Assembly: GCA_020072805.1 (NCBI GenBank)
Contig: JAIQGC010000023.1
Coordinates: 1-45,317, forward strand
Length of the DNA stretch: 45,317 nucleotides
Source: Terriglobia bacterium
GTDB lineage: Bacteria; Acidobacteriota; Terriglobia; Acidiferrales; UBA7541
Direction of reading: 5' to 3'
In this document: one piece after another, positions 10,819-34,735 of the stretch
Layout: the number at the start of each line of letters is the position of its first letter
Position numbering within the stretch: position 1 is the stretch's first letter
Program-made: the position numbers and the translations under genes
The notes under the pieces: generated by a model
What the model was told of the DNA's origin: nothing
Databases searched by the model: none
The model's input: the letters and a program-made list of their open reading frames with translations, nothing else

Positions 10819-10830
10819 AAAGAAAAAACT

Positions 10831-11613: not shown

Positions 11614-11643
11614 GGCGCTCTCCCTTTCCCCCGCATTTGTAGG

Positions 11644-11663
11644 GGCCAGGCTTTAGCCTGGCC
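11644..11663. repeat. Intergenic hairpin GGCCAGGCT/AGCCTGGCC
   Basis: GGCCAGGCT (11644-11652), TT, AGCCTGGCC (11655-11663): perfect 9-bp arms in the dehydrogenase/crotonase gap inside an operon. The sequence (preceded by TGTAGG) resembles a repeat type I recall from Acidobacteriota intergenic regions. Only this copy was found in the window. Confidence 0.6.
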
Positions 11664-11693
11664 ATTCTTCTGCTCTTATAAATTTCACTCCCG

Positions 11694-12575: not shown

Positions 12576-12650
12576 GGGAACCCCCCGAGATTTGAACAGC
12601 CGTTCGAATCCGGCTGCAATGCTAAAGAGTTTAGCAGAATTTGCTGGCCG

Positions 12651-18723: not shown

Positions 18724-19341
18724 ATGGCAACCTTTACCGGCATCATCGGCACCGGCAGCAAATGGCTGCTGGACAAAATCGTCGGCGCGCTGGCCGCCAC
18801 CGGCATCAACCCCAACTTCCTCACCTTCCTCGGACTGGTCGTCAATTTCGGCGCGGCCGCCATGTTCGCCACGGGACGCTTCCGCAGCGGCGCCGCCATC
18901 ATCTTCTTCGCAGGTTTTCTGGACATGCTCGACGGACAAGTAGCCCGCCGGCAGAATCGCGTCACCGCGTTCGGCGCCTTCTACGATTCCACGCTCGACC
19001 GCTACGCCGATATGGCTCTCTACATGGGCCTTCTGGTCTATTACTCGGTGAGCGGCCGCACTCCCTACGTGGTGCTCGCGGCGGTGGCCACCGCGGGATC
19101 GGTGATGGTCAGCTACGCGCGCGCCCGCGCCGAATCCCTCATTCCCCTCTGCAAGGTCGGTTTCATGGAGCGGCCCGAACGCCTGGTTCTGCTGATCATC
19201 GGCGGCGCGTTCAACCGCATGGGGCCGGTGCTGTGGGTCATCGCGGTAATTTCCACGCTGACCGTCATTCACCGCATCGTCTTCACCTGGCAGGAAACCC
19301 GCGCCGGCCGCACTATTCCCGGCATCAAGCTGAGCGTCTGA
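18724..19341 (+). CDS. CDP-alcohol phosphatidyltransferase
   Basis: A 205-residue integral membrane enzyme that displaces CMP from a CDP-activated lipid (or alcohol) with an alcohol phosphate or alcohol. The full signature D-x2-D-G-x2-A-R-x8-G-x3-D-x3-D is present, reading DMLDGQVARRQN and then GAFYDSTLDRYAD (about residues 62-95). About five to six hydrophobic segments surround it. It could be a phosphatidylglycerophosphate or phosphatidylinositol-phosphate synthase type; the acceptor cannot be read from sequence. It converges on the lipid operon at 19395-33083 with a 53-base gap. A shared lipid role is plausible but not shown. Confidence 0.9.
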   Translation: MATFTGIIGTGSKWLLDKIVGALAATGINPNFLTFLGLVVNFGAAAMFATGRFRSGAAIIFFAGFLDMLDGQVARRQNRVTAFGAFYDSTLDRYADMALYMGLLVYYSVSGRTPYVVLAAVATAGSVMVSYARARAESLIPLCKVGFMERPERLVLLIIGGAFNRMGPVLWVIAVISTLTVIHRIVFTWQETRAGRTIPGIKLSV

Positions 19342-19394: not shown

Positions 19395-20114
19395 TCAGCC
19401 TTTCAGTGGGCCGGCGATGATGGCACGCACGCGGTCGCGCAGCGCGGGAACGTCTTCTTTCGTCAATTCCCTGGTCTCAATCAGGTCGTGGAGATGCACG
19501 ACGATCCGCGCGGGATGCAGCATCCAGCCGCCGGTGCGGTGATGTTCGAACGAGCCCACCACGGTGACCGGAACGATGGGCACGCCCAGCGTCTGGGCCA
19601 CGCGGAATCCTCCGTCCTGAAATTCGCAGAGCTGGCCATCGCGGGTGCGCTTGGCCTCCGGAAAAATAATCAGGCTGGTGCCGCCGTCAATCGCGTCGCG
19701 GGTCAGCCGCCACATGCGCTTGAGATCGGAGGGGCGGCGGATATCGGGAACCGGGACGTTGCCAAAGCGGCGCATCAGCCAGCCATACACCGGAATCTTG
19801 AAATGCGATTCGAGTTCCCATCCGCGCACAAACTGCGGCACGGCTGAATACAGCACGAAGGGATCGAAGAGATTGACGTGATTGACCATGAAGAAGCAGG
19901 TGCGCTGCGGATCAAAACCGGGCGCGCGCCGCACCTCCAGCCTCGCTCCGGCGAGAAAAAGAATGCGGCGGCAAAGCCCGCGCTGCAGCCAGTCGTGCTT
20001 GCGCATATCGAGGAAGACGCCAAGAAGAATAAGCAGCGGAACGAGAATGAAGAAATGCAGCCCGCTGACCAGCCACAGCAGCAGGCTGCGCAGCACAGCC
20101 CACGCGTTTCTCAT
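19395..20114 (-). CDS. PlsC-type 1-acylglycerol-phosphate acyltransferase
   Basis: A 239-residue membrane-anchored acyltransferase, probably acylating a lysophospholipid-like acceptor. An N-terminal hydrophobic helix (about 8-35) is followed by the catalytic H-x4-D motif in NHVNLFDPF (about residue 79). The third PlsC motif is IIFPEAKRTRDG; the usual FPEGTRS has become FPEAKRT, a shift in the phosphate-binding loop that hints at an unusual acceptor. A conserved VPIVPVTVVGS segment follows. Its start overlaps the lipid kinase stop by four bases (ATGA, 20111-20114). It is the last gene of the eleven-gene lipid operon. Confidence 0.9.
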   Translation of the reverse strand: MRNAWAVLRSLLLWLVSGLHFFILVPLLILLGVFLDMRKHDWLQRGLCRRILFLAGARLEVRRAPGFDPQRTCFFMVNHVNLFDPFVLYSAVPQFVRGWELESHFKIPVYGWLMRRFGNVPVPDIRRPSDLKRMWRLTRDAIDGGTSLIIFPEAKRTRDGQLCEFQDGGFRVAQTLGVPIVPVTVVGSFEHHRTGGWMLHPARIVVHLHDLIETRELTKEDVPALRDRVRAIIAGPLKG

Positions 20115-21031
20115 ACGAAGCAGTCCAGCGCGGCGGGAATCACTTCCACCGAGCGCAGGTCAAGTTCGAGAACTTCGCCGTCCACTAGTACATTGACGGG
20201 ACCGGGCAGGCGAAACTCGATGCGGCGCGCCGCGCGGCGGCTGGCCAGCGGATGCGTGACGTGTGTGCCGTCATACAGCCGCGGAAGCATGCGGATCAGC
20301 CCGAGGCGTCCGATGGGGCCCCAGCGGACTACTTCGATCAGCCCGTCGGTGGGATCGGCTTGCGGAGCGATCATCATGGTTCCGCCGGTGTATTTGCTGT
20401 TGCTGAAGGCATAGAAGAGGCAGCGGCCCTCGTCCCACTCCTTGTCGGCGTCGCAGCGCAGGGGAAAAGGGCGGCGGGACAGCGAGGCCACGCGGGCAAA
20501 AACGCCGAGGAGATAGCCGAGAGTGCCCAGACGTTTGAAATAGCGGTTGGCGGTCATGCCCACGTCGGCCGGAAAACCGATGCTGATGATGTTGAAGGAA
20601 TAGACCGCGCCGGTGGAATGGGTCAGACGAATGACGTCGCAAGGGCGGCTGCGGCCGGCGAGCAGGGCGTCCATGGCGGCCTTTTCGCCGTCGGCGGAGA
20701 AATCGCGAAGAAAGGAGTTTCCCGTGCCGAGGGGAAGGAAGCCCAGCGCGATGCGTCCGGGAGAGGGATTTTCCGTGAAAATGCCGTTGATGATTTCATG
20801 CGCGGTGCCGTCGCCGCCCACGGCCAGAAACTTGCGGTAGCCCTGCTGGTAGGCCTCCTGCGCCAGGTGCATGACGTGGCCCTGTCCGGTGGAGGCGATG
20901 ACGTCCACGGACAGGCCAGCCGAACGCAGGCGCATCAGGGCGGGGCCGGCCAGTTTGGCGGAGCGCCCGCCGCCGGCGGCGGGATTGACGATGGCGAAAA
21001 AACGCTCTCTCATGGCCGCTTCACGCAGCAT
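20111..21031 (-). CDS. Diacylglycerol/lipid kinase (DagK/YegS family)
   Basis: A 306-residue soluble lipid kinase. The N-terminal catalytic domain has IVNPAAGGGRSAK and the nucleotide-binding VGGDGTAHEIINGI (about 70-84), followed by LPLGTGNSFLRDF (about 98-110). The C-terminal beta-sandwich includes GGTMMIAPQADPTDG and VLVDGEVLE. It would phosphorylate diacylglycerol, a sphingoid-like base or an alkylglycerol with ATP. Substrate is unknown. ATG 21031 has AGGA about 10 bases upstream; ATG 21013 is an alternative six residues shorter. It is spaced 12 bases from the ligase upstream and overlaps the PlsC gene, so the two are translationally coupled. Confidence 0.93.
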   Translation of the reverse strand: MLREAAMRERFFAIVNPAAGGGRSAKLAGPALMRLRSAGLSVDVIASTGQGHVMHLAQEAYQQGYRKFLAVGGDGTAHEIINGIFTENPSPGRIALGFLPLGTGNSFLRDFSADGEKAAMDALLAGRSRPCDVIRLTHSTGAVYSFNIISIGFPADVGMTANRYFKRLGTLGYLLGVFARVASLSRRPFPLRCDADKEWDEGRCLFYAFSNSKYTGGTMMIAPQADPTDGLIEVVRWGPIGRLGLIRMLPRLYDGTHVTHPLASRRAARRIEFRLPGPVNVLVDGEVLELDLRSVEVIPAALDCFV

Positions 21032-21043
21032 GCGCAGGATTCC

Positions 21044-22777
21044 TCATAGGGATCTTACCGCCGATTCACGCTCCAGCCGGGCCAGTTGCTCCGCAAGAAC
21101 ATTGCGCTTGATCTTGAGCGAAGCGGTCAGCGGAAAATCTTCCTTCCAGAAGACCACGCCATGAATGCGCTTATAGTTCAGCAGACGGCTGTTGCGCGCG
21201 TTAATCTCGCGCAGCAGATCCTCTTCGGAGGGACCCCCGCTGTCCGGATGAACGACGAGGACCAACTGCTCGCCGGTCATGGAGCGGCGCGGCCAGACGA
21301 AATTGGCCGCGAAGACACAGAATTCCTTCACGGGAAGGCCCGCGAAAACATTCTCGATGTCCTCGGGGTAGATGTTCTTCCCTTCCTCGGTGACGATCAT
21401 ATTTTTTTTGCGGCCGAAAAGCTGCAAATGCCCGGAAGAATCCAGCCGGCCAATATCTCCGGTCATCAGCCAGCCGTCCACGATGGTTTCTGCGGTCAAT
21501 TCCGGCTCGTTGAGATAGCCGGACATGATGGTGCGGCCGCGCGCGGCGACTTCACCAATGCCATCTTGGCCGGGGTTGACGATGCGGACTTCGACACCGG
21601 GCAAAGGTTTACCCACGGTGTCGGCGCGAAAAGGCTTCAGGTCGTTCACGGTAATGACCGTGCAGGCTTCGGTGAGACCGTAACCGTTGGCGACGGGAAT
21701 GCCGAGATCGTAGAAGAACTGCAAATTTTGGGGTTCGGAAAACGCGCCGCCCACGACGATGGCCAGCAATTCGCCGCCGAAGGCCTTGTGCACCTGCGGG
21801 AGCAGGCGGCGGCTGATCCACAGGCGCGGGCGTCCGCGCGTGAGCAGTTTATTCAGCGCGATCATGGCGTTGAGCAGGGCGCGCTTGGCCGGGGGCAGCG
21901 CGGCGAAGCGCTCCTGAAGGCCCTTCTGCAGATTTTTCAGGACGGCGGGAACGAGAGTGACGTAGGTGATCTTGTAGCGCGTGAAGGCTTCGCGCACAAA
22001 TTCCGGGCGCAGCGTGCGCAGATGCACGACGGCGGCGCCGCAAGTGAAGGGCCCGATGAATCCGACCATGAAATCCACGGCGTGATTGGTAGGAAGAATG
22101 CTGAGGTAGCGGACGCCGGGCCAGAAGGGATAAAGGGAGGTGAGCGCGACGCACTGCGAAAGATAGCACTCGTGGGCCATCATGCAGCCCTTGGGGCGGC
22201 CGCCGGTGCCGGAAGAGTAGACGATGCAGGCGGTGTCCGTGCGCTGGCGGGGAATTAAATCGGGATCGGCGGCTCCGCGGAACTCCTCCCAGCGCAAGGC
22301 GCCGTGGAGGTCCGCGCTGGGCGGGGCTTCGGTGACCAGGATGATGCCCACGGCGCTACCCGCGCGGCCAGGATCGGCGGCCAGCTGGCGCCAGATGTGA
22401 TACTCGGTGATCAGCACGGTCGCGCCGGAATGTTTGAGAAGCTGCCAGTGCTCGGGAGGAGTAAGTTTGTAATCGAGCGGAACCAGGACGCCGCCGCGGA
22501 AGAAAATGGCATAGGCGGAGATCAGCCACTTGGACTGATTGGTCATGATGATGGAAGCGCGATGGCCGGCGGCGAATCCGGAGTCCTGCAGTCCGCGCGC
22601 GAGGGGATGGGCGCGCCGCTGAAAATCCAGGTAAGTGAGGCGCTCTTTTTCTTTTTCGCGATCGGCTTCGATCAGGCAGACTTCGCCGGCGAAGCGGGCG
22701 AGCGCGTCACGCAGCGCCGCTCCCAGAGAATCATACCCGGTGAGATCCAGCATCGAAGTTGAAGACGAGCGGCTCAC
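21044..22777 (-). CDS. Acyl-AMP ligase / acyl-CoA synthetase, paired with ACP
   Basis: A 577-residue ANL-superfamily adenylating enzyme. Its P-loop motif [13 protein letters not shown] (about 185-197), the [14 protein letters not shown] motif, the [14 protein letters not shown] block, the [20 protein letters not shown] hinge region and the C-terminal catalytic Lys in [10 protein letters not shown] are all intact. It should activate a carboxylic, probably fatty, acid. The start overlaps the acyl carrier protein stop by four bases (GTGA, 22774-22777), a strong hint that the acyl chain is loaded on that ACP. ATG 22753 is an alternative start. Chain length and acceptor (CoA or ACP) are inferred, not read. 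Confidence 0.92.
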
Positions 22778-23016
22778 AGGCGTGACTGGATGCGCTCGGC
22801 GAGGGTACGGAAATCGCTGACGCCCTGCACTTCGTAATCGGGGAGTTCGATGCCGAAATGATTTTCCAGGCGGGTGAGCAGTTCGAGGGCTTGCAGGCTA
22901 TTGATGCCCAGCTTCTTGAAGAAATCGTCGGCGGGAGAAAGGCTTCCGATCAGCACATTAAAGTGCTGGGCCGCGAGGGTCAGGACTTCCTGCGTGGTTT
23001 GTTCCAATGTGCGCAT
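22774..23016 (-). CDS. Stand-alone acyl carrier protein
   Basis: An 80-residue ACP fold. The phosphopantetheine attachment Ser is in [16 protein letters not shown] (Ser40 from ATG 23016); the usual DSL is NSL here, as in several specialised ACPs. Four-helix spacing and length fit. The ATG at 23016 is preferred over a TTG two codons upstream. It overlaps the adjacent ligase by four bases and lies inside the lipid operon, away from any fab genes. A dedicated carrier role, not general fatty acid synthesis, is therefore likely. A 95-base gap separates it from the hydrolase gene upstream. Confidence 0.92.
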
Positions 23017-23111
23017 GGTCAATCAAATTTATCATCCCTGCCGGGCGGAACAAAGCGGAAGGAGCAATTTCGCGCCCTGCTTTTCACCCGCAAAACGCCC
23101 CGGAGCATCCG

Positions 23112-24944
23112 CTAGGGAATGACCGGGAGGAGGATGTAGGAGACCTGGGCGCCGGAATGGTGCACAGTCTGGCGGGCGATGCGCCAGGAGTTTTCGTCGT
23201 AATTACTGCCGCCGGTGTTGAGGTTGCGGTCAAAGCGCGGGAAATTGCTGGAGGAGATCTCCAGGCGCATGCGGTGGCCGGGCGCGAAGAAATTGCTGGT
23301 GACATTGAGGTTGATATGAACCTCGTAGGTTTCGCCGGGTTTCATGGTCACTTGTTTATCCAAACCTTCGCGATAGCGCATGCGCTGAATGCCCTCTTGA
23401 ACATTGAAGGCCGTGCCATCGGGATAAACGTCCACCAGCTTGGCGGTAAAGTCCGTATCCGGAACGTCGGAGGAAACGAAGAGCACCACCTCGACGGGGC
23501 CGGTGACTTCGGCGCCTTTGGCTAGGACCGGGGAGGTATAAACCAGAACGTCGTGGCGCATTTCGACGTCGGACTGGTCCTGCGCGCCGGATTTCAAATC
23601 GCCGGGAGCGGCGCCCCAGTCCGGGCCGCCCACGCTGGGAACGGGAGTCTTGGGGTCATAGACGAAATGGTCGGGGGGCTCCTCGGAGGGGCGGTCGGTG
23701 GAAAGAAGACCGTCGCCGAAGCGGCTGTTGGCGTGGCCGGAACTGCGCAGATAGACCTGCGTGGGCAGGGCGCGCGCCGGGGGCCATTCGTCTTCACCGC
23801 GCCACTGATTGCGGCCCATGACGTAGTACTGAACTTTGGGCATTTTTTCCACGCCGTTGTCCACGTCCCGGAGCCAGTGATCGAACCAGGCGAGATACAG
23901 GCCGAAATAGTCGTAGCGGGCATCGCCTAAATCGCGCGCGCCGACGAGCGTATGTTCGCTGGACTGTTCATAGGCGCAGTGGGTGGTGGGGGCGATAATC
24001 ACAAATTGATTGTTGCGGCCAATGTCGCCTTCGCTGTTCTTGCGGATGAGTTCGGCCAGGCGAAAGGTATCCGCGGGGCCGTAGTCGTACCAGGAGTCCA
24101 CGAAGAGACTGGGAATGTCGAAACGGTCTCTCTCGGTAATGTAACCGCGCGAGCGCCACCAGGGATCGCCCTCGGCATGGGAGACGAATTCGTCCCAGTC
24201 GGTGGCGGGCATGCCGGCGCGGTCCATCATGCCCTTGAGGGGCAGGCTGCGCCAGAGCGAGGGCCAGTCCACCTTGGGGGGAATGAAATCGGGGGGGCGA
24301 GCGGCGCCGGGGGCCGCGTAGGGGCGTTCCTTGGCGCCGTGCGAAAGGAACCAGTTCGCGTCTGCAGCGAGTTCAAAAGCGCCGCCGCGCCAGGAGCCGA
24401 AATACTGGAGGCTGCCGCTGGCGGCCTGGGGAATCATGGCCAGATGGTGAGGCTTGCGGTTGCGCGCCAGTTCAACCTGGTTTTCGCCGGAATAGGAGCA
24501 GCCGGTGGTGCCGATTCTTCCGTTGGACCAGGATTGCGAGAGGATCCAATCCACGGTGTCGGAGCCGTCCTCGGTGTCGTCCGCGGAAACGGTGAAGGCG
24601 CCGCCCGATTCAAATTTTCCGCGAACATCCTGCACGACGACGACGTAGCCATGAGAGGCAAAGCGACGGGCGTCCGCGGCAATCCCTTCGGAACTTTTGT
24701 TATAGGGCGTGCGGATGAGGATGGCGGGCAGGCGCTGCCTAGCGCGCGTGCCCACGGGAACATAGATGTCGGCGGAGAGCGGGGCCATGTCGCGCATGGG
24801 GACGCGCACGCTTTTCTGGACGGTGATCTGGTATTTGGGGGGAGGTTCGGGAAAGCGGGCGATGGGGGATTGCGCGAACGCCACAGGGGCGAAGCAGTAC
24901 GCCAGTGCCATGGCGGCCAACACGCGGGGAAGGGTGTTGCGCAT
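23112..24944 (-). CDS. Secreted CocE/NonD-family hydrolase
   Basis: A 610-residue exported alpha/beta hydrolase with a C-terminal jelly-roll domain, related to cocaine esterase and X-Pro dipeptidyl peptidase. A signal peptide covers residues 1 to about 24 (cleavage near AFAQ). The nucleophile Ser150 is in TTGCSYSGEN (G-x-S-Y-x-G type). The oxyanion/acid region and a late His (PTTHCAYEQ) are visible, and the C-terminal domain contains typical FVSSDVPDTDF and GHRMRLEISSSNFPRFDRN segments. It is an ester- or amide-bond hydrolase; substrate is unknown. It is embedded between acyl-activating genes, so a lipid ester outside the cytoplasm is one possibility. Confidence 0.9.
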   Translation of the reverse strand: MRNTLPRVLAAMALAYCFAPVAFAQSPIARFPEPPPKYQITVQKSVRVPMRDMAPLSADIYVPVGTRARQRLPAILIRTPYNKSSEGIAADARRFASHGYVVVVQDVRGKFESGGAFTVSADDTEDGSDTVDWILSQSWSNGRIGTTGCSYSGENQVELARNRKPHHLAMIPQAASGSLQYFGSWRGGAFELAADANWFLSHGAKERPYAAPGAARPPDFIPPKVDWPSLWRSLPLKGMMDRAGMPATDWDEFVSHAEGDPWWRSRGYITERDRFDIPSLFVDSWYDYGPADTFRLAELIRKNSEGDIGRNNQFVIIAPTTHCAYEQSSEHTLVGARDLGDARYDYFGLYLAWFDHWLRDVDNGVEKMPKVQYYVMGRNQWRGEDEWPPARALPTQVYLRSSGHANSRFGDGLLSTDRPSEEPPDHFVYDPKTPVPSVGGPDWGAAPGDLKSGAQDQSDVEMRHDVLVYTSPVLAKGAEVTGPVEVVLFVSSDVPDTDFTAKLVDVYPDGTAFNVQEGIQRMRYREGLDKQVTMKPGETYEVHINLNVTSNFFAPGHRMRLEISSSNFPRFDRNLNTGGSNYDENSWRIARQTVHHSGAQVSYILLPVIP

Positions 24945-24988
24945 GAGTGCTCCTTGCCGATGCGGACAGGGGGATGACGGAACGGCGC

Positions 24989-25546
24989 TTACGGCCGGAA
25001 ATCCCTGTCCTTACAGTTCGGTTCAACATCATAGCCGAGGTAGTAATAACGATGCCATTTTCTGGGGCCCTCGAGGGGCGGACCATCCCAAACAGTAACG
25101 TGCAAGCCTTCGGAGCTGGCGCAGATGCGGAAGGAGTCGGGCCGGCCGTTTCCATTGAGGTCAGGACGGAGGAGATCGCCCTCTTTCGGGAATTTTCCGT
25201 CAAACCCCACAACGGCAATTCCCAGATCGCCCGGCGCGAATTCCTTTTCGCTGACCTGAAGGGAATAGAAGGAGTCCCGCGGGCCGGTTTCCGGATTGCG
25301 CGAGCAGCTCGCTTCGAGGCGGGCGAGAATGCGCGCCACAGAGAGCGTCTGCGGAGAGCGAGAGACGATGTGCAAAACCGCGTCCACGGGGAGCGAGGAA
25401 TTTTCGATGGTCAGGCAGGGCTGGCCCTTGGGGCTGAAGTCCACGAGGCCCAGTTGCGAGGAATAATCGAATGGCTGGGGCTGCTGCCGGCCGGCGGAAA
25501 CCACGGCCAGAGCGAACCCCGCAAGAATCATGGCCAGAAGCCGCAT
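24989..25546 (-). CDS. Secreted hypothetical protein with a Ca-binding-like loop
   Basis: I do not recognise this 185-residue protein. It has a short signal peptide (residues 1 to about 19, hydrophobic LLAMILAGFALAVVSA). A DLNGNGRPD segment (129-137) resembles a calcium-binding dockerin/EF-hand loop (D-x-N-x-N-G-x-x-D). Four cysteines (44, 81, 142, 178) could form two disulfides. The mature part is probably beta-rich. The gene lies 44 bases upstream of the CocE-type hydrolase gene on the same strand, so the two may be exported together. Confidence 0.75.
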   Translation of the reverse strand: MRLLAMILAGFALAVVSAGRQQPQPFDYSSQLGLVDFSPKGQPCLTIENSSLPVDAVLHIVSRSPQTLSVARILARLEASCSRNPETGPRDSFYSLQVSEKEFAPGDLGIAVVGFDGKFPKEGDLLRPDLNGNGRPDSFRICASSEGLHVTVWDGPPLEGPRKWHRYYYLGYDVEPNCKDRDFRP

Positions 25547-25603
25547 CCTTCCTCCTTCCGCGCTCCCGGAAAAATCAGCCGGGGGTCGCGGTGTGTCTTT
25601 CGC

Positions 25604-26407
25604 TTACGGCAGATAGGGCATGGCGTCGGTGGACTCGTCGAATTTTTTGAGAGCGGCCATGACCGCCGGGCGCTGGAAAAGGTCGCAGAAGATATCGATT
25701 TCCAGGCGCAGTTCGTCGTGGGGGATGGGCTTGATGAAATGCTTGGCGGCAGAGCGCGCGGCGGGATCGAATTTGGCGATTTGCGCGGCCGTCGAGCGGG
25801 CCACTTGGAGGGCCTGGCCTTCGCCGGCCAGTTGCGAGACGAGTCCCACAGCCTGGGCGCGGGCGGCGTTAACGCTGCGGCCGGTGAGCAGAATATCGCG
25901 CACAAAGGCATTGCCCAGGTCGCGCTTGAGACGGGGAATGCCGCCGAAGCCGGGGATGAGGCCGAGGCGCAGTTCGGGGAAGGCGAAGCGGGCCATTTTG
26001 TCGGCGATGATGAGGTCGCAGGCCAGGGCCAATTCAAAACCGCCGCCGAAACAAGCGCCGTGGACGGCGGCGATGGTGACGACGGGAGTGGCGTCGATGG
26101 TGTTGAGCACTTTGTGAATGCGCTCGAGGAATTCGCGCACGCCGGCCAGGCGCTCTTTTTCGGGGAGCGGCGCGGCGGCGTGATACAACTCGCGCAGGTC
26201 GGCGCCGGCGGAAAAACCTTTGGGTTGCGCGCTCGAGAGAATGCATACGCTGGTCTGCGCCGCCATGGAGTGCAAAGCGGAGACGAACTGTTCAAGTTCG
26301 CCGAGCATGGTCCGGCCAATCTCGTTAGCCGGAGCGCGGTCGAGGGTCAATTCGAAAATGCCGTCGCGCCATTCCCAGCGCAGGGTATTGCCGCTAAAGG
26401 ACTTCAT
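25604..26407 (-). CDS. Enoyl-CoA hydratase/isomerase family protein
   Basis: A 267-residue crotonase-fold protein. Oxyanion-hole segments FSAGADLRELY and VHGACFGGGFELALACDL are visible, with Glu in GGFELA and a second Glu in FAFPELRLGLIPGFGG, so hydratase-type acid/base residues are retained. It differs from the crotonase at 10831-11613 in being within the lipid operon. Its start overlaps the acyl ligase stop by four bases (ATGA, 26404-26407), which implies coupled synthesis. It could process enoyl- or 3-hydroxyacyl thioesters made by that ligase. Exact reaction is unknown; the family also includes isomerases and hydrolases. Confidence 0.9.
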   Translation of the reverse strand: MKSFSGNTLRWEWRDGIFELTLDRAPANEIGRTMLGELEQFVSALHSMAAQTSVCILSSAQPKGFSAGADLRELYHAAAPLPEKERLAGVREFLERIHKVLNTIDATPVVTIAAVHGACFGGGFELALACDLIIADKMARFAFPELRLGLIPGFGGIPRLKRDLGNAFVRDILLTGRSVNAARAQAVGLVSQLAGEGQALQVARSTAAQIAKFDPAARSAAKHFIKPIPHDELRLEIDIFCDLFQRPAVMAALKKFDESTDAMPYLP

Positions 26408-28110
26408 ATCTGCCGCCTATCGTACATGGCGTTGATTTGATTTGCGAAGCGGGAATTGATGGCCTCACGGCGAAGCTTGCCGTTGGCGGTGAGCAGACCG
26501 GCTTCCGGAGTAAAAGGCTCGGCAAGGACGGTGAAATGATGCAACTGGCGGTAATGCGGCAATTCCGGATTGAGCGCGTCGAGCGCGGCTTGCACCGAAG
26601 AGTCCCCGACGGGGCCGGTAATCAGTGCGCAGAGATAGCCGCGTCCATTGCCCACGACGACGACTTGTTGCGCGCCGGGGATGAGCAACTGCAATTTTTC
26701 CTCGATGGGTTCGGGGGCGATCTTGTGGCCGGAATTCAGGACAAGGAGATTCTTGACCCGGCCGATGATGCGCAGATGGCCATCCGGGCCGAACTCGGCC
26801 TGATCGCCGGTATGGAACCAGTCGCTGCGCAGGACCTGGGCGGTTTCCTCCGGGCGGCGCCAGTAGCCCGGGAAAATATGCGGGCCGCGAACCAGCAGCT
26901 CCTGATTTTCGCCGATCTTCATCTGGATGCCGGGAATGGAGACGCCGACGAAGCCGGGGAGGGGCGGGCGCGTGGGGTCGTCGAGGGTGCAGATGCCAGT
27001 GGTTTCGGTGAGGCCGTAAGCCTGAAGAACAGGAATGCCCAGCATGAGGAAAAAATACTGCGTTTCCGGGGCGAGGGGAGCGGAGCCACAGATGAGCGCG
27101 CGAAGATGCGGGCCGAAGCGCTGGCGGATCTTGCTGAAGATGAGTTTTCCCGCAAGGGCCAGGAAGAAAGAATCGAGAAAGCGGGGCTGATTATCGGCGC
27201 GGCGCTGCCAAGCCTCGCGTGCGCGGGAGAAGAGCGCGCGGACGAGAGCGCCGCGCTTGCCGAGGGCGTCTTCGACGCCGCGGCGGACGCGTTCGAGCAG
27301 CGTGGGGACATTGAGGAAATAATGCGGCTCGGCGGCGCGAATTTCGTCGGCAAGTTTATTGAGGTCGGTGGAGAGAGTGAGCGTGCTCTCGCGGCTGAGG
27401 CAACTGAGCAGGAGCAGCCAGGAGGCCGCGAAATTGAAAGGGAGATAGTGGAAGACTCGGTCGCTGGCCGTGGCGGGGGGCTGATGCATCAGTTGATCGA
27501 GGCGGCCGGTGGTGCAGCCGAGCATGAAGCTGACGTTGGCAAGATTCAAGCACACGCCCTTGGCTTCGCCGGATGTGCCGGAGGTATAGATGATGGTGAC
27601 CAAGGCGGAGTCCGCAAGGGGAATGGGGCGGTTAGGAATATCGCCTTGGGCTGGCGCTTGGCCGAGCATGATCTGGCCGAGGAAAACTTCCTGAAAGGTG
27701 ACGCGAGCGGTAGGCGCCATCGCTCCCGCAGGCCAGGCGGCGGCAATGGATTTGCCGAGCGCGGCGTCGGCGCAGAAGAGAAAGCGGGGCTGGGCGTCGA
27801 GAACCATGGCGGCGAGCTCCGCGGGCGCCTGGCGGGAATAGAGCGGGACGACGACGACGCCCTCGGCCATGAGGGCGAGATCGAGGGCCACCCAGAGGAT
27901 GGAATTGGCGCCGACGAGGGCGCAGCGGTCGCCGGGCCGCAGGCCGGATTTGCGGAGCCAGGCGCGGGCGCGGCGTACTTCATCGAGCAGTTCACCGCCG
28001 GTGACGGAGACGGGAGAGGGGGAGCGCAGTTCGGCAAGGACGGGGCGGTTCGCCGCGCTTTCAAGACGGGCAAAAATGTGTTCGAGGAAATTGGGCATGG
28101 GCGTCAGCAC
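26404..28110 (-). CDS. Long-chain acyl-CoA synthetase-like ligase
   Basis: A 568-residue ANL-superfamily enzyme, the second one in the operon. It carries TIIYTSGTSGEAKG (P-loop), the RALICGSAPLAPET region, LQAYGLTETTGICTL, HTGDQAEFGPDGHLRIIGR and C-terminal TANGKLRRE with the catalytic Lys. The long-chain acyl-CoA synthetase (FadD15/FAA-like) branch fits best, whereas the ligase at 21044-22777 belongs to a different branch. Having two distinct activators suggests two acyl inputs or two carriers. A GTG at 28110 or ATG at 28098 could start translation; neither has a strong ribosome site. It lies 19 bases after the pyruvyl transferase gene. Confidence 0.9.
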   Translation of the reverse strand: MLTPMPNFLEHIFARLESAANRPVLAELRSPSPVSVTGGELLDEVRRARAWLRKSGLRPGDRCALVGANSILWVALDLALMAEGVVVVPLYSRQAPAELAAMVLDAQPRFLFCADAALGKSIAAAWPAGAMAPTARVTFQEVFLGQIMLGQAPAQGDIPNRPIPLADSALVTIIYTSGTSGEAKGVCLNLANVSFMLGCTTGRLDQLMHQPPATASDRVFHYLPFNFAASWLLLLSCLSRESTLTLSTDLNKLADEIRAAEPHYFLNVPTLLERVRRGVEDALGKRGALVRALFSRAREAWQRRADNQPRFLDSFFLALAGKLIFSKIRQRFGPHLRALICGSAPLAPETQYFFLMLGIPVLQAYGLTETTGICTLDDPTRPPLPGFVGVSIPGIQMKIGENQELLVRGPHIFPGYWRRPEETAQVLRSDWFHTGDQAEFGPDGHLRIIGRVKNLLVLNSGHKIAPEPIEEKLQLLIPGAQQVVVVGNGRGYLCALITGPVGDSSVQAALDALNPELPHYRQLHHFTVLAEPFTPEAGLLTANGKLRREAINSRFANQINAMYDRRQI

Positions 28111-28129
28111 AAACAGAAAAGATTGTGGT

Positions 28130-29578
28130 TCATGCGGATTTGCCCGCGGCGGCGCGCGGCTCCGGTGAAGTGTCGTAACGTTCGATAAGGCCGCGCAAGG
28201 TGGGGCTGAGCGGGGGAAGATAATCCTCCCAGCCGAGCAGGCCGGAGCGCAGCGGAAATTCGGGATACTGGCGGCGGACGGAGTCTTCGAGGAAGACGCC
28301 CATGCGAGCCATGACTCGGAGATTGCGCACGACGGTGCGGCCGATGCCGTCGCGGACGGCGTCCTGCTCGGCGTGCAACTGTTCCATCACGGCGAGGAGG
28401 CGCGGTTCGAGGTCGGGGTCGTCCACGGTGAGGAGGAGGTGCTGGTGGCCGCGCTCGGTCATGAGGTTGCGGATGCGCTCGTCCATGGTGACGCCGGCGG
28501 AGGCCACCAGGCCGGGCATGCAGGTGACGATGCCGTGATAGCGCGAGGAGACCATGAGCGAGCACTGGCGAAGGATGCTGACCAACTGGAACATGTCGTA
28601 GTCGTCGGAGGTGAGCACGGGCGTGCCGGGGAGAAGGGCGGCGACGTCGCGGCAGGCGCGGGCGTCCAGGCGCTCCATGCCGACCAGCACGGGAAAAACA
28701 TTATGGCGCTGGTGGAAGGCGGCGGTGGCGCGGGCGATGGAGGAGATGTAGTGATGGTACTTGGCGTCGACGGCGGCGCCGGATTCGTGAAAATAGACGG
28801 TGCGGTACTGGCTGTCGCGCCAGGCGCCGGTGGTGACGCGGGCGAGATATTTGGCGATGGAGGCTTTTACGGGCCACCAGAAGGGATGGATCGGGCAAAT
28901 GGCGAGGACGGGAGTCTTTTCGTCCCAGCCGGCCTCGCGGAGAGCCTTTCGGCCATATTCGGGCGGGTGCGGCTCGAAGGTCCAGGCGGTGTCGGTGCCA
29001 AGTTCAGTGGAGATGCCCAGTTTTCCGAGGACGCCCTGGGATTCCGGATTGCGCGTGATGATCATCGAATCGCGGACGTAGCGGGCGCACATGCGCTCGA
29101 TGAGGAGATCCATGTGGCCGGCTTCGGCGCCGTAGCCGACGGAGAGTTTATTTTCGGCGGAGGCGATGCCCAGCGAGCCGATCATCATGGTGGTAAGGGC
29201 GTTGGCGAATTTGCTCTTGAACATTGAGCCTTCGCAGGCGATCACGCCGTGATTGGCGCGGACTTCGCGGAAGAGGAAGGGCGGGTAAACGTCGGGGAGA
29301 TGAACCTGCCGGGTGGATTCGAAATAGCCGCGGGTTCGCTCGAAATTCTGGGTCATCACGCTGAAGTCCACGTGCTCGGCGCCGAGGACGTGGCGCACCT
29401 GGCGGAGCATTTCTTCGACGCGCACGTCGGCGCCGGTGTTGCGCGTGCCGTTGTAGCCGGCGAAGAGCAGCTTCAGTTTTTCGCCGGGGCTCCAGCGGCG
29501 GCCGTAGCCGAGCATCCAGCCGATGCGGCTGATCTCAATGAGCGCGCTGACCCAGGCGACCAGGAGGAAATCGGTCAT
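28130..29578 (-). CDS. Polysaccharide pyruvyl transferase family protein
   Basis: A 482-residue member of the CsaB/WcaK-type pyruvyl transferase fold. The N-terminal half has [20 protein letters not shown], matching the N-(T/A)-G-D/A start. The C-terminal half has the nucleotide/PEP-site-type motif [13 protein letters not shown], and [12 protein letters not shown] precedes it. An N-terminal hydrophobic stretch (residues 3-24) may anchor it to the membrane. Family members move pyruvate from PEP to a sugar hydroxyl. Its presence inside a lipid operon, overlapping the reductase gene by four bases (29575-29578), is unexpected. It could decorate a glycolipid head group. Acceptor unknown. Confidence 0.87.
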
Positions 29579-30723
29579 GGGCGCGGGCTCCCTGTGGCGT
29601 CTTTCGCAGTGCTCTCGGGCCAGGGCTGCGCGGGGTAGCGGAAATTATTTTTGCGGCTGAACTGGAGCAGCGGATAGGCGTAGGTAGAAAATTTCGCGGG
29701 GGCTTCGCCCAATTCGGCAACCACGCGGGAATTGTCGAAGGCCGTGTTCCAGACCAGGTAGGGCCAGAAAACCTTGAGCAGCCAGGCGGCCTGGCTGAGT
29801 TTGCCGCTGCGGCGGGCGAGCCAGTCAATCGTGGAAGAAAACGGTTTGCCCAGGCGCGGAGTGTAGAACGGCGTGCTGCGGCCGCTGGCGGCGGCCAGAG
29901 CGTCTGTGAGTTCGCGATAGGTCTGCGAACCGGCGCCGGAAGAAAGATGGTAGATGCCGTGGGCGGCGTGGTCTTTCTGGTGAATGGTGACGATGGCTTT
30001 GCCGACGTAGTCCGCCGGGACGATATCAATGCGGTCGGTGGGGCGCAGGGGGAGCACGGGCAGGCCAGCCAGAATGTGGAAGGCGCGGACCATATCGAAC
30101 TGCGTGGTTTCCGGGCGGCGGCTGTCGCCCAGGACGATGGCGGGGCGGAAGATGGTGCGGGGAACGTCGGGAAGAAGCTGGGCCACCATGTGCTCGCAGA
30201 ATTTCTTGGTGCGCGCGTAGGGGTCGTAATCGGAGCGGTTCCAGTCGATGGCCGAATCTTCCTGGACGATTTCGTCCTGGCGGTGACCGGCGACGGCGAC
30301 GGTGCTGACGTGGGAATAGCGGCGCAGTCCGTGGTGGTTCTGCGCGCGGCGGGCGAGCTGGATGATTTCGAGCGAGCCGCGAAGATTGACGTTGAGGCAC
30401 TGCTTTTCCGATTTGCGGTTGAGCGAAGCGGCGCAGTGGATGAGCGAATCGGTGGAGTCCACCAGGTCGCGATATTCCTGCTCGTCCAGGCCGAAGTGGT
30501 CGCTGGTGAGATCGCCGAGGAAGATGCGCACGCGGCCGCTGAGGCGGTCGAGAAATTCGGGGAAAGCGTAATGGAGTTGGAGAGATTGCCAGAGGCGCGC
30601 GCGGGCCTCCTGCTGCGATTTGGCGCGCACGAGAAGATTGAGCGGCTCGCGGTGCCCAGTGAGAAGACCGGAGACGATGTAGCTGCCGATGTAGCCTGTC
30701 GAACCGGTGACGAAGATGGCCAT
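29575..30723 (-). CDS. NAD(P)-dependent SDR, thioester-reductase-like
   Basis: A 382-residue extended short-chain dehydrogenase. The Rossmann motif [13 protein letters not shown] begins at residue 5. The catalytic Tyr-x3-Lys is in DPYARTKKF, preceded by [10 protein letters not shown] with the catalytic Ser/Thr. The [11 protein letters not shown] and [13 protein letters not shown] segments match the NAD_binding_4 (male-sterility / thioester-reductase) group, which reduces acyl thioesters to aldehydes or alcohols. A C-terminal 100-residue extension has no clear match. It lies 11 bases after the fatty acyl reductase fusion, so two acyl-reductase-type enzymes stand side by side. An epimerase role is the alternative. 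Confidence 0.85.
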
Positions 30724-30734
30724 AGGAATTCGGT

Positions 30735-33083
30735 TTATGCTCCGGAAGCGCCGGGCGCGGTGACCGCCGCCTCATTCGCCCAATCGAGCTGGCGCGCCGG
30801 ACGCGACTCGAGCGGCCGGCCCTCCATTAAGGGATAGCACCAGCGGCGCAGAGCCGGCACGTGGATGTTAATCCAGTATTCCCACCAGTCAATGCCTTCG
30901 GGAGCGAAATCAAAGCGCTCGCGTTCGGCGGGGCCGAGAGCCGCGGAGAGCATGCGGGCGTTTTCCGCCTCGAAGACGTGCTCGTTATGGAGGATGAAGG
31001 GCTCGTAGAGTTCGATGAGTTTTTCGGCGCGGATGAGGTCGCGCTCCTGGCGCCCCAAGGGAGGCTTTTTGCGGCCCAAAGCTTCGGCCAGGCGGTTGAT
31101 GCGGGAAACGACGGCCTTCTGCATGGGGATGGACATGCGCTCGTAGCGGGCTTTGGAGACCGAGATGGTCTCGAACTTCATCTTGAGCCAGTGCTCGAGG
31201 CCCTCGATGGTGAGGTAGTGTTTGCGATGGGCCAGAGCGGTCAGCTCGATCGAGCGGCCCATGTCACAGGGATTGGTAGCCGAAGTGGCCAGATGGTAGA
31301 GCCGCGCGTTGCGGCGGCTGACCACGGCGGCGGCGATCAGAATCATGCCGCGGCAGACCATGTCCACGGGAATGACGTCGAGGCATTTGCGCTCGTTCGA
31401 GGGCAGCTGGCGGAAGTTGGTGCCCAGAAGGTAGGAGAGCGGGCCGGAGGTGTTGATGCCCTCGTTCCAGCCGGAGAAGGGCGAGCGCGTGGAGCTTTCC
31501 ACGATGGAGGGGCGCACGACGGCGATGGGCAGGCCTTTGCCGTGGCGGGCCAGCAGGGATTCGCCGAGGCTCTTGGTGAAGGTGTAAGTGTTGGGCCAGC
31601 CGAGATGGCGTGCGCGGCGCATGCCGATGCGGGTGAGGCGGTTGCGCGCCCAGCGTGTGCGGTTGCGCTTGAGCATGCCGTCCAGATCGGCGGGCGGCGT
31701 TTGGGCATTTTCGGGGCGGCGGCCAAGGGCCTGGCGGTGGAGTGCGGCGGCCAGTTCGGGGCTTTCGGAGCGCTCTTCGACGCGGCGAACCGTCTCGCGG
31801 AGAGAGGCAATCTCTCTTTCGGAGTCGAAGGCGGGATCGTGGGTGGGATTGTAGTTTTCCTGCAGCTCCTCGTTGACGCGGCCGTCGCGCGCGCCGATGA
31901 CATAGCAGGTGGAGAGGTGCATCAGGCCGGCGTGATCGCACTGGCGGAGGAACTCGAGCAGGTGCGCGGCCGAATCCACGTTGGAGGAAAGGGCGTCGCG
32001 CAGATCGGGATTGAAATCGGTGAGACCGGCGCTGTTGACGATCAGGTCGAGCGAGCGCACCAGGCGGGCGCGCACGGCTTCGTCCAGGCCGAGGCCGGGC
32101 TGGCTGACGTCGCCTTCCACCACGTCCACTTTTTCCTTCAGAAAAGCCAGCAGGCCGGAGCCGTGGCGGCGCGCCAGAGTGTCAAAGCAAGGGGACTCCT
32201 CGACGATTTTTTCGTAGCGGCGCTGCCCGCTGGTGGTGCGGTTGCGGCGGATGAGCAGGGTGATTTTGCCGATCTGGGGAATCTCTTCGAGGAGATTAAC
32301 CAGCCAGACCTTGCCGATGAAGCCGGTGACGCCGATGAGCAGGATGTGCTTTCCGGCGAGCGTCTCGCCGACGGAAAGCTGGGCCACGCGCGGGGCGCTG
32401 CCGGAGAGGACCACTGGGCGCGGCGCGATGGAGAAGATGCGCGCGGCGGGCTGCAGCGCCGCGCAAAGGTTTTCCGGCTTACCCGGCCAGCCCAACTGGC
32501 GCAGCAGGCGGTCCTGATCCACATAGCCGTCCACCGAGCCGCCGGCCAGAAGAGCAAAGGGGCCGCGGGGCAGGATGACGGGGTCGAGCAGACGGCCGGT
32601 GGCGCGGCCGGCGCGAAATTCGAGGCGGTTGGCGATGATCCATTCGACGCCGAGATGCTGGGCGAGGGGGCGGAGGAGGTGATCAAGGCCCTGGCTGACC
32701 AGCACGATGCGTTCGCCGCGCTTTTGCGCTTCGCGGAGTTTGGCGACGGCCGCCGGGCGAAGCTGAGGTTTCAGAACGTAGCGGAAATACTCCTCGCCGA
32801 GGGAATCGAGGCGGTCGCGGGAAACGCCACGCAACAGGAGATGCAGCAGCCGCGTGGCGCCGATGCGGCTGGCGGCAAAGACGAAGGGACGCAGGAGGGC
32901 CATGAGAGCCATGCCGGCGCGGCGGGCCCAGCGCTCGGAAAAACTCTGCGTATTCCAGGTGAAGAAGCGGATGGGGCGCAGGGGGCCCAATTCGAGCAGG
33001 CTGCCGTCCACGCGCCAATAGGTGCGCTGGCCCGGAGCGGGCGGTGCGGGAGCGGTCAATTTTGGCTCAGGCGATGGAGACAT
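30735..33083 (-). CDS. Pseudo-HAD / fatty acyl reductase fusion protein
   Basis: A 782-residue two-domain protein. Residues about 20-205 follow the HAD subfamily IB (PSPase-like) fold, but motif I reads [10 protein letters not shown]: the nucleophilic first Asp is Arg24, and only the second Asp (26) remains. Motif II Ser130 (IVLVSQG) is present, while the late acidic motif is not recognisable, so phosphatase activity is unlikely. Residues about 245-780 form a fatty acyl reductase: [11 protein letters not shown] (251-261), [26 protein letters not shown] and the catalytic YTFTKSLGE (Tyr500, Lys504), then a C-terminal sterile-like domain. It should reduce fatty acyl thioesters to alcohols or aldehydes with NADPH. 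It is the first gene of the lipid operon. Confidence 0.88.
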
Positions 33084-33286: not shown

Positions 33287-33892
33287 TCATTGCGCCGCAC
33301 GGTGTTCGAGCATGGGGAGCAGAAGCGCCTTTAAGACCGTGGAAGGGTATTTCTTGGCGTATTCGAGCAGCTTGGGCTGGTCCAGCTTGCGGAACTGGAT
33401 TTCATCGAGGGGCACAGGCAGGCCGTCCTGAAGATGGAAATAGACCCAGTCGAGCAGGGCCTTTTCCGGTTCGGCGATTTTGTAGGTGGTGTAGCGGGTC
33501 TTTTTTTCGAGAAAGCCCCAGAAAAGATCGGTTTTGATTTTGCGATAGGTGATGTGCACGGATTCGGACCGGATGGTGCGCGCGTTGGAGGTGCTGACGC
33601 AGGTCAGGGCCACGGGGCTTTGCGTGGAAAGACCCCATTCGGCCAGGGCGGTATCCAGGGAGATATAGGAGTCGGGGCGCAGTTCGTTGACGAGGTCCCG
33701 CGCCGTGTAGCCGGCCGTGAGTTTATTCAGATAGACGCCATCGGCCAGGGGTTCGAGCAATCCCGATTTTTCCTGCCGTTTGAACGCCTTGCTGACAGCC
33801 GAAGGGGAAAGGCCGTACTTCGACGCAATGGGGCGAATGCGCAGGATCGCGCCCGTTTTGGCTTCGTTGGCTAATGCCGCTATCCAGTCCAT
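33287..33892 (-). CDS. AbiEi-family antitoxin (type IV toxin-antitoxin)
   Basis: A 201-residue protein with an N-terminal winged-helix region (GLSPSAVSKAFKRQEKSGLL, about 27-46). The C-terminal AbiEi domain carries YISLDTALAEWGL and the YTTYKIAEPEKALLDWVYF block (about residues 132-150), which is the usual family hallmark. AbiEi proteins repress their own operon and counter the AbiEii nucleotidyltransferase without direct complex formation. Here the antitoxin gene lies downstream of the toxin gene, the reverse of the common order, with 12 bases between. It lies between the lipid operon and leuB and is probably a separate acquisition. Confidence 0.85.
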   Translation of the reverse strand: MDWIAALANEAKTGAILRIRPIASKYGLSPSAVSKAFKRQEKSGLLEPLADGVYLNKLTAGYTARDLVNELRPDSYISLDTALAEWGLSTQSPVALTCVSTSNARTIRSESVHITYRKIKTDLFWGFLEKKTRYTTYKIAEPEKALLDWVYFHLQDGLPVPLDEIQFRKLDQPKLLEYAKKYPSTVLKALLLPMLEHRAAQ

Positions 33893-33904
33893 GATTTCCG
33901 CACC

Positions 33905-34696
33905 CTAGAGCCACTTCCGGAAGAGCGTACGCAACGAAGCCCGCAAGGGCTCGAAGCCGACTGCTTCCAGAGGCCGATAAATTTCCACTGGCAGAACGCT
34001 TTGCAGCTCCGCCGCGCATTTTTTCGCGTCGATTGTGGCAATGAGCGCCGCGAGATCTTCGCCATCGAGTTCCCTCATGGCCAGACTATCCGCCAGACCG
34101 TCTTCCAATTCCGCAGCCAGCACCGCGCCCGCGCCGAGCAGGAGATTGATGTCGTAAGCATCTCTGGCTTTGACTCTGGCCCGCCCCACAAAGGCTTCGG
34201 CCTTCTGCAGCAGGAGGTGATTCTTCGAGACCACTTGTACGGCGGCCGTGGCGCTGCGCGAGACCGCTTCGAGTGAATGTTCCTCGATTCCCGATGCGGC
34301 CACCGCTCCCAATCCTCCCATGTCGATGGTAAAGAGCGTGGCTCCCTCGCCGCTGAACAGTTCAAGCTTGCAGGGCATGGTCCGGCTATGAACGATTTCC
34401 ACGGTCAGCGGGGCGTAACCGAGCAGTCCCGCCAGTTCCTGGAGTTCCACGGACAAAACCTTGATGACTTCGTCCACGCTGGGACAGTCGAGAGCTTTGG
34501 GAATCAAATCCAAATCCCGCGATGTGCGCGCGCTGTCATGAAACAGGATGAGATTCGCGCCTCCGTAAAGCGAAAACGAGCCCGGGAAAGTGCTGGACAG
34601 GAGAATGGCCGCCTCGCGGATCAGGACGACTGTTTTTGCGCCCGCATCGTCGAAACCACGGGCTTTCAACCGATCGAGTTGTCGGGCAAGATGCAT
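33905..34696 (-). CDS. AbiEii-family nucleotidyltransferase toxin
   Basis: A 263-residue nucleotidyltransferase of the AbiEii/DUF1814 group. Motif I is YGGANLILF with RTSRDLDLI (Gly45-Gly46, Asp61, Asp63), the metal/NTP site. Later landmarks are IDMGGLGAV, the KNHLLLQKAEAFVGRARVKARDAYDI segment with the conserved Lys and the Asp of the second motif, and a helical C-terminus. ATG 34696 is chosen because the upstream extension is only hydrophobic promoter-like sequence. No ribosome site precedes it and a TATAAT lies 15 bases upstream, so the message may be leaderless or nearly so. In AbiE systems the toxin modifies cellular tRNA ends or similar targets; that detail is recalled from the family, not visible here. 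Confidence 0.85.
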   Translation of the reverse strand: MHLARQLDRLKARGFDDAGAKTVVLIREAAILLSSTFPGSFSLYGGANLILFHDSARTSRDLDLIPKALDCPSVDEVIKVLSVELQELAGLLGYAPLTVEIVHSRTMPCKLELFSGEGATLFTIDMGGLGAVAASGIEEHSLEAVSRSATAAVQVVSKNHLLLQKAEAFVGRARVKARDAYDINLLLGAGAVLAAELEDGLADSLAMRELDGEDLAALIATIDAKKCAAELQSVLPVEIYRPLEAVGFEPLRASLRTLFRKWL

Positions 34697-34711
34697 GACA
34701 AAGACAATGGT

Positions 34712-34735
34712 ATTATATACGCTTAACCATGTCAA
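34712..34735 (-). promoter_or_regulatory. Candidate promoter of the AbiE pair
   Basis: On the - strand TTGACA (34730-34735) is a perfect -35. TATAAT (34712-34717) is a perfect -10 hexamer, but only 12 bases apart. With the standard 17-base spacing the -10 would be TACCAT, 10 bases before the ATG. Either way transcription would start very near the start codon. Confidence 0.4.

Follow-up and report, generated by a model that had tools for sequence, protein, structure and literature searches.

A conserved nine-gene block in Acidobacteriota as a candidate pathway for a fatty-alcohol-derived membrane lipid

Which lipid would be made by an operon that brings together acyl-activating, acyl-reducing, lipid-phosphorylating and acyl-transferring enzymes with a pyruvyltransferase-family protein? 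This question is raised by eleven open reading frames (ORFs; g1 to g11, Table 1) in a 45,317-nt stretch of DNA from a Terriglobia bacterium (contig JAIQGC010000023.1, assembly GCA_020072805.1), referred to here as the window, with its genome as G000. As judged from sequence comparison, nine of these genes almost certainly belong to one conserved pathway. The block looks like an undescribed assembly line leading from fatty acids to fatty alcohols and on to a special membrane lipid, probably with a pyruvate-derived piece. A fatty alcohol is a likely intermediate, and the tentative reading put forward here is that of a dedicated pathway whose product would be a membrane glycerolipid derived from a fatty alcohol and probably of ether type.

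Gene order and distribution of the block

Loci with a HAD domain fused to a fatty acyl reductase (HAD-FAR, g1) were gathered from 52 stretches of phylum genomes, from the best 80 of 267 relatives among GTDB species genomes and from the window, 133 in all; 60 phylum stretches had been fetched, and L091-L098, which are elb-type or carry a separate FAR, were set aside (L, G and f numbers are labels of this analysis for loci, genomes and families). Removal of identical FAR segments left 125 loci, of which 33 are too short and 92 extend 9.9 kb or more downstream. In all 92, g1 is followed in order by the short-chain dehydrogenase/reductase (SDR), pyruvyltransferase-family (PyrT) and first AMP-ligase (AMPa) genes. 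The order continues through the crotonase/enoyl-CoA hydratase (ECH), acyl carrier protein (ACP), second AMP-ligase (AMPb) and lipid kinase (DAGK) genes in 83 loci. All nine genes, including that for the PlsC-type acyltransferase, are found in 42 of the 92 loci and in 34 of the 45 with at least 12.5 kb downstream. The single dedicated lipid pathway proposed in the initial annotation of the window is thus upheld by nine core genes kept in order across numerous Acidobacteriota, most of them uncultured, whereas its expectation that the whole set is conserved together fails for g6 and g7.

Nine loci lack the eight-gene series (L065, L079, L082, L085, L086, L090, L167, L170 and L171). In L085, L086 and L167 the second module has its ACP end in divergent orientation upstream of g1, the ECH-to-DAGK segment is inverted in L170, and in G042 (L065/L187) ECH, AMPb and DAGK lie elsewhere on the same contig. 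Some of these exceptional loci therefore show two movable modules.

The two secreted proteins behave differently from the core. In tblastn searches of the 92 loci (E ≤ 1e-5), g7 was found in three, the window and its genus mates L039 and L040, and g6 in the window alone, although a short, fast-changing g6 could escape detection. This suggests a nine-gene core with two insertions: g6 is probably a local insertion outside the conserved core and g7 looks like one, and their membership in the pathway, assumed in the initial annotation, is rejected on this occurrence. The genus mate L043 carries at the same site, between crotonase and ACP (10472-12934), two trypsin/PDZ-like proteases and a response regulator, recognised by eye; similar-sized ORFs occur in L048 and L078.

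Two further candidates for the core were rejected. A KAS III gene lies between ECH and ACP in L082, L087 and L112, with a more distant copy in the elb-type locus L095. A 2Fe-2S-like protein of 338 aa adjoins the ECH/ACP module in G421, G374 and G433. Homologues turned up in 7 of 19 genomes, each a member of f60, f71 or f80, while the f1, f2 and f38 genomes tried gave none, which places the protein outside the core; in f71 and G205 the homologues lie on contigs other than that of the block. Proteins of about 340 aa with a C-terminal cysteine pattern like that of plant-type 2Fe-2S ferredoxins (by eye; no Pfam match) were seen near ECH or ACP/AMPb in f60 and f80 (L184, 4707-5723; L190, 4534-5562; L149, L167 and L181).

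The phylum-wide survey covered 395 Acidobacteriota genomes, each at least 90% complete. PyrT (at least 62% identity) occurs in 16 of them, with weak matches in G204 (28%) and G395 (25%), and the crotonase (E ≤ 1e-40, with up to six candidates scored per genome) occurs in exactly the same 16. Full-length HAD-FAR was found in 15 of the 395, all within this set; the exception, G433, lacks g1 because its contig stops 12 bases past the start of the SDR gene, at the expected beginning of g1. Tight linkage cannot explain the shared distribution of PyrT and crotonase, since the crotonase lies on a different contig from PyrT in G205, G374, G380, G451 and G433 and about 31 kb away in G421. The chance of a random identical 16-of-395 set is 8e-29, which is not a true p-value because the genomes share kinship.

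These 16 genomes represent six families, and PyrT is also present in two genomes of a seventh (L194 and L199; f86, a family of the taxonomic order to which the window belongs). Within f2 it occurs in 68 of 248 genomes, which belong to 25 of the 62 genera; within f71 in 9 of 10 genomes, once as a fragment. A match to g1 was obtained in 81 of 89 genomes of the window's own family, that of G052 being weak and confined to the HAD part, and some others being fragments. In G000, g3 is the sole PF04230 (PS_pyruv_trans) gene found. A second PyrT homologue, 38% identical, was observed in a cluster-bearing genome (L191, 8485-10074, G144:C148) beside a gene that appears patatin-like by eye. The best 80 records are titled as metagenome-assembled genomes or environmental bins, with soil, peat and groundwater among the sources; 79 titles carry an acidobacterial name, and that of L129, Bacterium HR10, gives no phylum.

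Table 1. Operon genes and the neighbouring phosphatidyltransferase gene in the window
Gene	Position	Strand	Protein
g1	30735..33083	-	HAD-FAR fusion, 782 aa; HAD-like N-terminus without Asp nucleophile, then NAD_binding_4 and Sterile
g2	29575..30723	-	Thioester-reductase-type SDR, 382 aa; NAD_binding_4; closest PDB relative MxaA 4u7w
g3 (PyrT)	28130..29578	-	Pyruvyltransferase-family protein, 482 aa; PF04230; predicted GT-B fold
g4 (AMPa)	26404..28110	-	Acyl-AMP/CoA ligase, 568 aa; top NCBIfam match FadD11, below cut-off
g5 (ECH)	25604..26407	-	Crotonase/enoyl-CoA hydratase, 267 aa; ECH_1
g6	24989..25546	-	Small predicted secreted protein, 185 aa; no Pfam/NCBIfam family
g7	23112..24944	-	Predicted secreted CocE/NonD-type (S15) alpha/beta hydrolase
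g8	22774..23022	-	ACP, 82 aa; PP-binding; TTG start as listed, Met codon two codons downstream
g9 (AMPb)	21044..22777	-	Acyl-AMP ligase, 577 aa, immediately after ACP; own clade in tree
g10	20111..21031	-	DAGK/YegS-type lipid kinase, 306 aa; DAGK_cat and YegS_C
g11	19395..20114	-	PlsC-type acyltransferase, 239 aa; Acyltransferase domain
CDP-alcohol phosphatidyltransferase	18724..19341	+	Neighbour, tail-to-tail with g11

The operon runs from 33083 to 19395, with the eleven ORFs where the initial annotation had placed them, and in each the G+C content is highest at the third codon position (0.71-0.84). Exact 4-base overlaps occur at four junctions (29575/29578, 26404/26407, 22774/22777 and 20111/20114), not at five as had been counted, although four were listed. 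The other six gaps measure 11, 19, 57, 44, 89 and 12 bases, so that, as described, most are under 60 and only one exceeds it. The enzyme activities originally named agree with the Pfam and NCBIfam matches, g6 having no family; the signal peptides of g6 and g7 were called by eye from the N-termini. Promoter and terminator scans gave counts at shuffle level (4 vs 3.1 and 16 vs 13.7, respectively) and are uninformative.

Of the 45 loci that extend 12.5 kb or more downstream, 32 have the CDP-alcohol phosphatidyltransferase gene on the opposite strand. Two minus-strand genes (33287-34735) immediately precede the operon: a DUF6088-like gene, whose Pfam score falls just short of the cut-off, and before it one for an AbiEii nucleotidyltransferase. 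They are likely a type IV toxin-antitoxin-like pair.

Catalytic residues and relatives of the core proteins

Residues were counted where copies aligned among 134 supplied loci, in which some genomes occur twice. The FAR half of g1 keeps YxxxK in 133 of 133 copies. It combines NAD_binding_4 and Sterile/FAR_C with GxxGxxG and YxxxK, which we take to be the architecture of alcohol-forming FARs. Its best PDB relative is the fatty acyl-CoA reductase 7eoz, and its next relatives in the phylum are the FAR modules of ElbD, the large chain of the elb ether-lipid system. The FAR half is thus probably fatty-alcohol-forming, in line with the reductive step suggested by the initial annotation. In the HAD half, motif I reads W-R-V-(E/D)-G-S and the nucleophile position is occupied by Arg in 133 of 133 copies.

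The remaining core enzymes likewise preserve their motifs. T141, Y169 and K173 of g2 are kept in 131 of 131 copies; its nearest solved relative, MxaA, presumably performs a four-electron reduction, which would fit the same reaction for g2. The best PDB matches of g4 are malonyl-CoA synthetase and 6oz1, entitled 'Oxidoreductase', which we take to be the A domain of a carboxylic acid reductase (CAR). The crotonase keeps E125 (98/98) and E145 (97/97), presumably the two catalytic Glu residues of hydratase-type crotonases (positions after rat ECH). The phosphopantetheine Ser of g8 is present in 101 of 101 copies, GGDGT of g10 in all 95-96 aligned copies and NHxxxxD of g11 in 48 of 48, and the catalytic residues of both ligases (g4, g9) are also kept.

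PyrT passes the Pfam gathering threshold for PF04230 (E 4.8e-7, 30.4 bits vs 25.3) and fails the curated cut-off of the CsaB equivalog TIGR03609 (E 1.1e-15, 57.8 bits vs 213.1). Four residues are invariant where aligned: R176 (122/122), R346 and H348 (120/120 each) and R368 (118/118). They correspond to R148, R306, H308 and K328 of CsaB, with Lys replaced by Arg at the last position, and passages in PMC10435577 name these CsaB residues as binding phosphoenolpyruvate (PEP). R346, H348 and R368 were placed via a canonical family member, and R176 by eye from the motif position. The AlphaFold2 model (mean pLDDT 85) predicts a GT-B fold; no pyruvyltransferase was present among the 50 matches listed by each of VIA-align and Foldseek, an absence that is uninformative.

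Relation to the elb ether-lipid system

In the review PMC9131029, the relevant passages describe ElbD as a FAR-ACS-ACP-AT chain (ACS, acyl-CoA synthetase; AT, acyltransferase), ElbB as a HAD protein, ElbA and ElbE as SDRs, and ElbC as a protein of unknown function. ElbD-type clusters are already on record for Acidobacteriota sponge symbionts (passages in PMC9426513) and for Acidobacteriota subdivision 4 (as cited in PMC10087280). Twelve elb-type loci from other Acidobacteriota (L091-L098 and L209-L212) served for comparison. In most cases they were annotated with a HAD protein, a Lar_N protein, a chain of about 1500 aa and an epimerase-type SDR; for L096 and L097 the chain alone was seen, and L212 has no SDR inside its stretch. 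The ElbD chains of L091 and L094 (about 1475-1511 aa) hold all domains in one polypeptide. Open frames of 1440 aa or more that include a FAR module occur in 45 of the 395 genomes (counted from a printed list), none of which is among the 15 HAD-FAR genomes.

The block shares with elb, the ElbA-E cluster known from Myxococcus xanthus, a FAR of common lineage, a HAD domain, an SDR and the functions of AMP-ligase, ACP and acyltransferase. In contrast to the single ElbD chain, the FAR, AMP-ligase, ACP and acyltransferase functions are split over g1, g9, g8 and g11. In a quick FAR tree, the HAD-FAR clade (SH-aLRT 99) joins at 100 with a second clade (93), which is made up of seven ElbD FARs and three standalone FARs, two further ElbD-like rows falling outside; the FAR domain of the cluster is accordingly placed as sister to the ElbD FARs. 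In the quick AMP-ligase tree, which has a weak backbone and several long-branched rows, AMPb forms its own clade and not a part of the ElbD A-domain clade, and AMPa is likewise a clade apart from the ElbD A domains. The best outside scores of AMPb among the rows compared are nevertheless with ElbD A domains (up to 262 bits vs 212 for the best G000 paralogue), so that a remote common origin is possible.

A DAGK gene adjoins 3 of the 12 elb-type loci: in L209 and L210 it directly follows HAD, ElbC, FAR and SDR, and in L093 it lies beside ElbE on the other strand. L209 and L210 are compact elb-type operons (HAD, LarA-like ElbC, standalone FAR, ElbE-type SDR, DAGK) in which no AMP-ligase, ACP or acyltransferase was recognised within the 10-kb stretch. 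G000 itself encodes a 947-aa chain (L002, G000:C48) that combines an AMP-ligase part, a PlsC-like part and an ElbD-like tail and gives no FAR match.

The differences from elb are several. The HAD domain of the cluster is fused to FAR and has lost its nucleophile throughout, whereas elb HADs keep the Asp in 10 of 10; g2 is of the thioester-reductase type, whereas the elb SDR of L094 is epimerase-type; and an orthologue of ElbC (LarA-like, Lar_N) is present in 0 of 16 cluster genomes vs 8 of 9 elb comparison genomes, distant matches (at most 32%) occurring in 5 of the 16. PyrT, the second ligase and the crotonase are additions of the cluster, no PyrT or ECH counterpart having been found in the elb-type loci scanned. 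Together with the placement of AMPb, these differences indicate related parts in a different pathway. The likeness to ElbD noted in the initial annotation therefore holds for the FAR lineage and the neighbouring DAGK; its picture of an ElbD cut into separate genes is not supported by the trees and the ElbC search.

Candidate product and comparison with known systems

From the gene content, gene order, co-occurrence and conserved catalytic residues observed, we infer substrates, an order of steps and a product as follows. AMPb would load a fatty acid onto the ACP, and the FAR half of g1 would reduce the acyl thioester to a fatty alcohol, with the HAD half acting as a non-catalytic docking or regulatory domain. 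PyrT may then add a three-carbon acid from PEP to the alcohol or to the hydroxyl of an alkyl lipid. This PEP-derived acid could be activated by AMPa, hydrated by the crotonase and reduced by the thioester reductase g2. The lipid kinase would phosphorylate an alkyl-glycerol-like alcohol, and PlsC (g11 or another PlsC of the genome) would acylate the phosphorylated product for phospholipid synthesis. That the product is an ether-type glycerolipid falls a little short of an even chance; this identity, already suggested by the initial annotation, is still one that we infer.

In its fullest form, this would be a new route to ether lipids in which PEP supplies the glycerol part, assembled on the alkyl chain. 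PyrT would combine fatty alcohol and PEP into an O-alkyl enolpyruvate, AMPa would convert it into its CoA ester (an enoyl-CoA), hydration by the crotonase would yield 2-alkoxy-3-hydroxypropanoyl-CoA, reduction by g2 would yield 2-O-alkylglycerol, and the kinase and PlsC would complete a 1-acyl-2-O-alkyl-glycerol phosphate. This complete route is rather doubtful, its chemistry from PEP onward being conjectural. It is attractive because, unlike the glycolipid or elb readings, it finds a task for AMPa, the crotonase and g2; every core gene would take part, with the HAD half of g1 alone being non-catalytic. If it were true, elb, with its LarA-like (2-hydroxy-acid type) ElbC, might represent a parallel C3-acid route.

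Several observations weigh against an ether glycerolipid made in this way. PyrT is a remote family member with no PDB relative found by sequence, and its predicted fold is nearest to UDP-GlcNAc 2-epimerases and PimA-like mannosyltransferases, which makes sugar chemistry possible. An N-terminal amphipathic membrane helix of PyrT, considered as a sign of lipid acceptors, was unsupported and dropped (median shuffle p 0.42). PlsC lies inside the block in only the 42 loci given above, many of the 92 ending near 10 kb. None of the enzymes known to form ether bonds, such as AGPS or PlsA/Ger, could be seen in the block; a PlsA/Ger-type protein is present elsewhere in G000, as well as in G028 and G029; that of G000 is a PF09989 protein on contig C142 (L179; open frame of about 1100 aa). 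Furthermore, the presence of ElbD is itself no guarantee of ether lipids, as a passage on Pontiella indicates (PMC11868695).

Other products were weighed against the same evidence. An alkyl or acyl glycolipid, its sugar ketal-pyruvylated by g3 and its glycosyltransferases encoded elsewhere, is unlikely. It would agree with the predicted PyrT fold and with the ketals that characterised PS_pyruv_trans enzymes put on lipid-linked saccharides (passages in PMC6801904); however, inspection by eye revealed no glycosyltransferase either in the conserved block or among the inserted genes read, which leaves the sugar link originally imagined unsupported, and AMPa, ECH and the thioester reductase would be left unexplained although ECH shares the distribution of PyrT. 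A specialised metabolite, or a free fatty-alcohol or wax-type store, is very improbable as the outcome instead of a membrane lipid. The CAR-like split of ligase, ACP and reductase domains and the patchy occurrence, as seen in f2, would suit it, but the lipid kinase and PlsC point to glycerolipid chemistry, the gene order is strict across several families, and the Pfam and NCBIfam scans reported no wax synthase, polyketide synthase or nonribosomal peptide synthetase (NRPS) condensation domain in the block.

It is likewise improbable that the block is a re-arranged elb operon yielding the same alkyl-ether phospholipids as Myxococcus ElbD. The shared domain types, the sister position of the FAR, the outside scores of AMPb, the DAGK beside elb-type FARs and the absence of any genome with both forms among the 395 (as read from the printed list) all speak for it. 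They are set against the missing ElbC orthologue, the lost HAD nucleophile, the other SDR type, PyrT and ECH without elb counterparts, and the separate clades of AMPa and, on a weak backbone with long branches, AMPb.

Among known systems, the ketal-pyruvyltransferases CsaB and Pvg1p resemble g3 in the predicted GT-B fold and in the PEP-binding positions (with Lys as Arg), whereas g3 is very remote in sequence and lies in a fatty acid/alcohol block without recognised glycosyltransferases. CAR and NRPS thioester reductases offer a second parallel: g2 is similar to MxaA and to the reductase domains of CARs, and g4 to CAR ligase domains, but the cluster counterparts are separate proteins next to a FAR. 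The PlsA/Ger glycerol-ester reductases, presented in passages of PMC13274423 as an alternative bacterial route to alkyl ethers, are proteins unrelated to those of the cluster. No description of the nine-gene block was found in the open-access literature searched by title, abstract start and passages. According to passages in PMC11868695 and PMC10087280, it is still open how bacterial alkyl ether bonds form and which members of the Acidobacteriota are the source of the branched ether lipids that serve as temperature proxies. The block offers a concrete pathway candidate that is widely conserved among Acidobacteriota of soil, peat and groundwater. A PF09989 (PlsA/Ger-type) match is lacking in 22 of 25 genus members searched, in all 22 of which g1 was found, and an ElbC orthologue in 16 of 16 cluster genomes. 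The block thereby supplies a set of genes that can be tested, together with a definite prediction of their chemistry.

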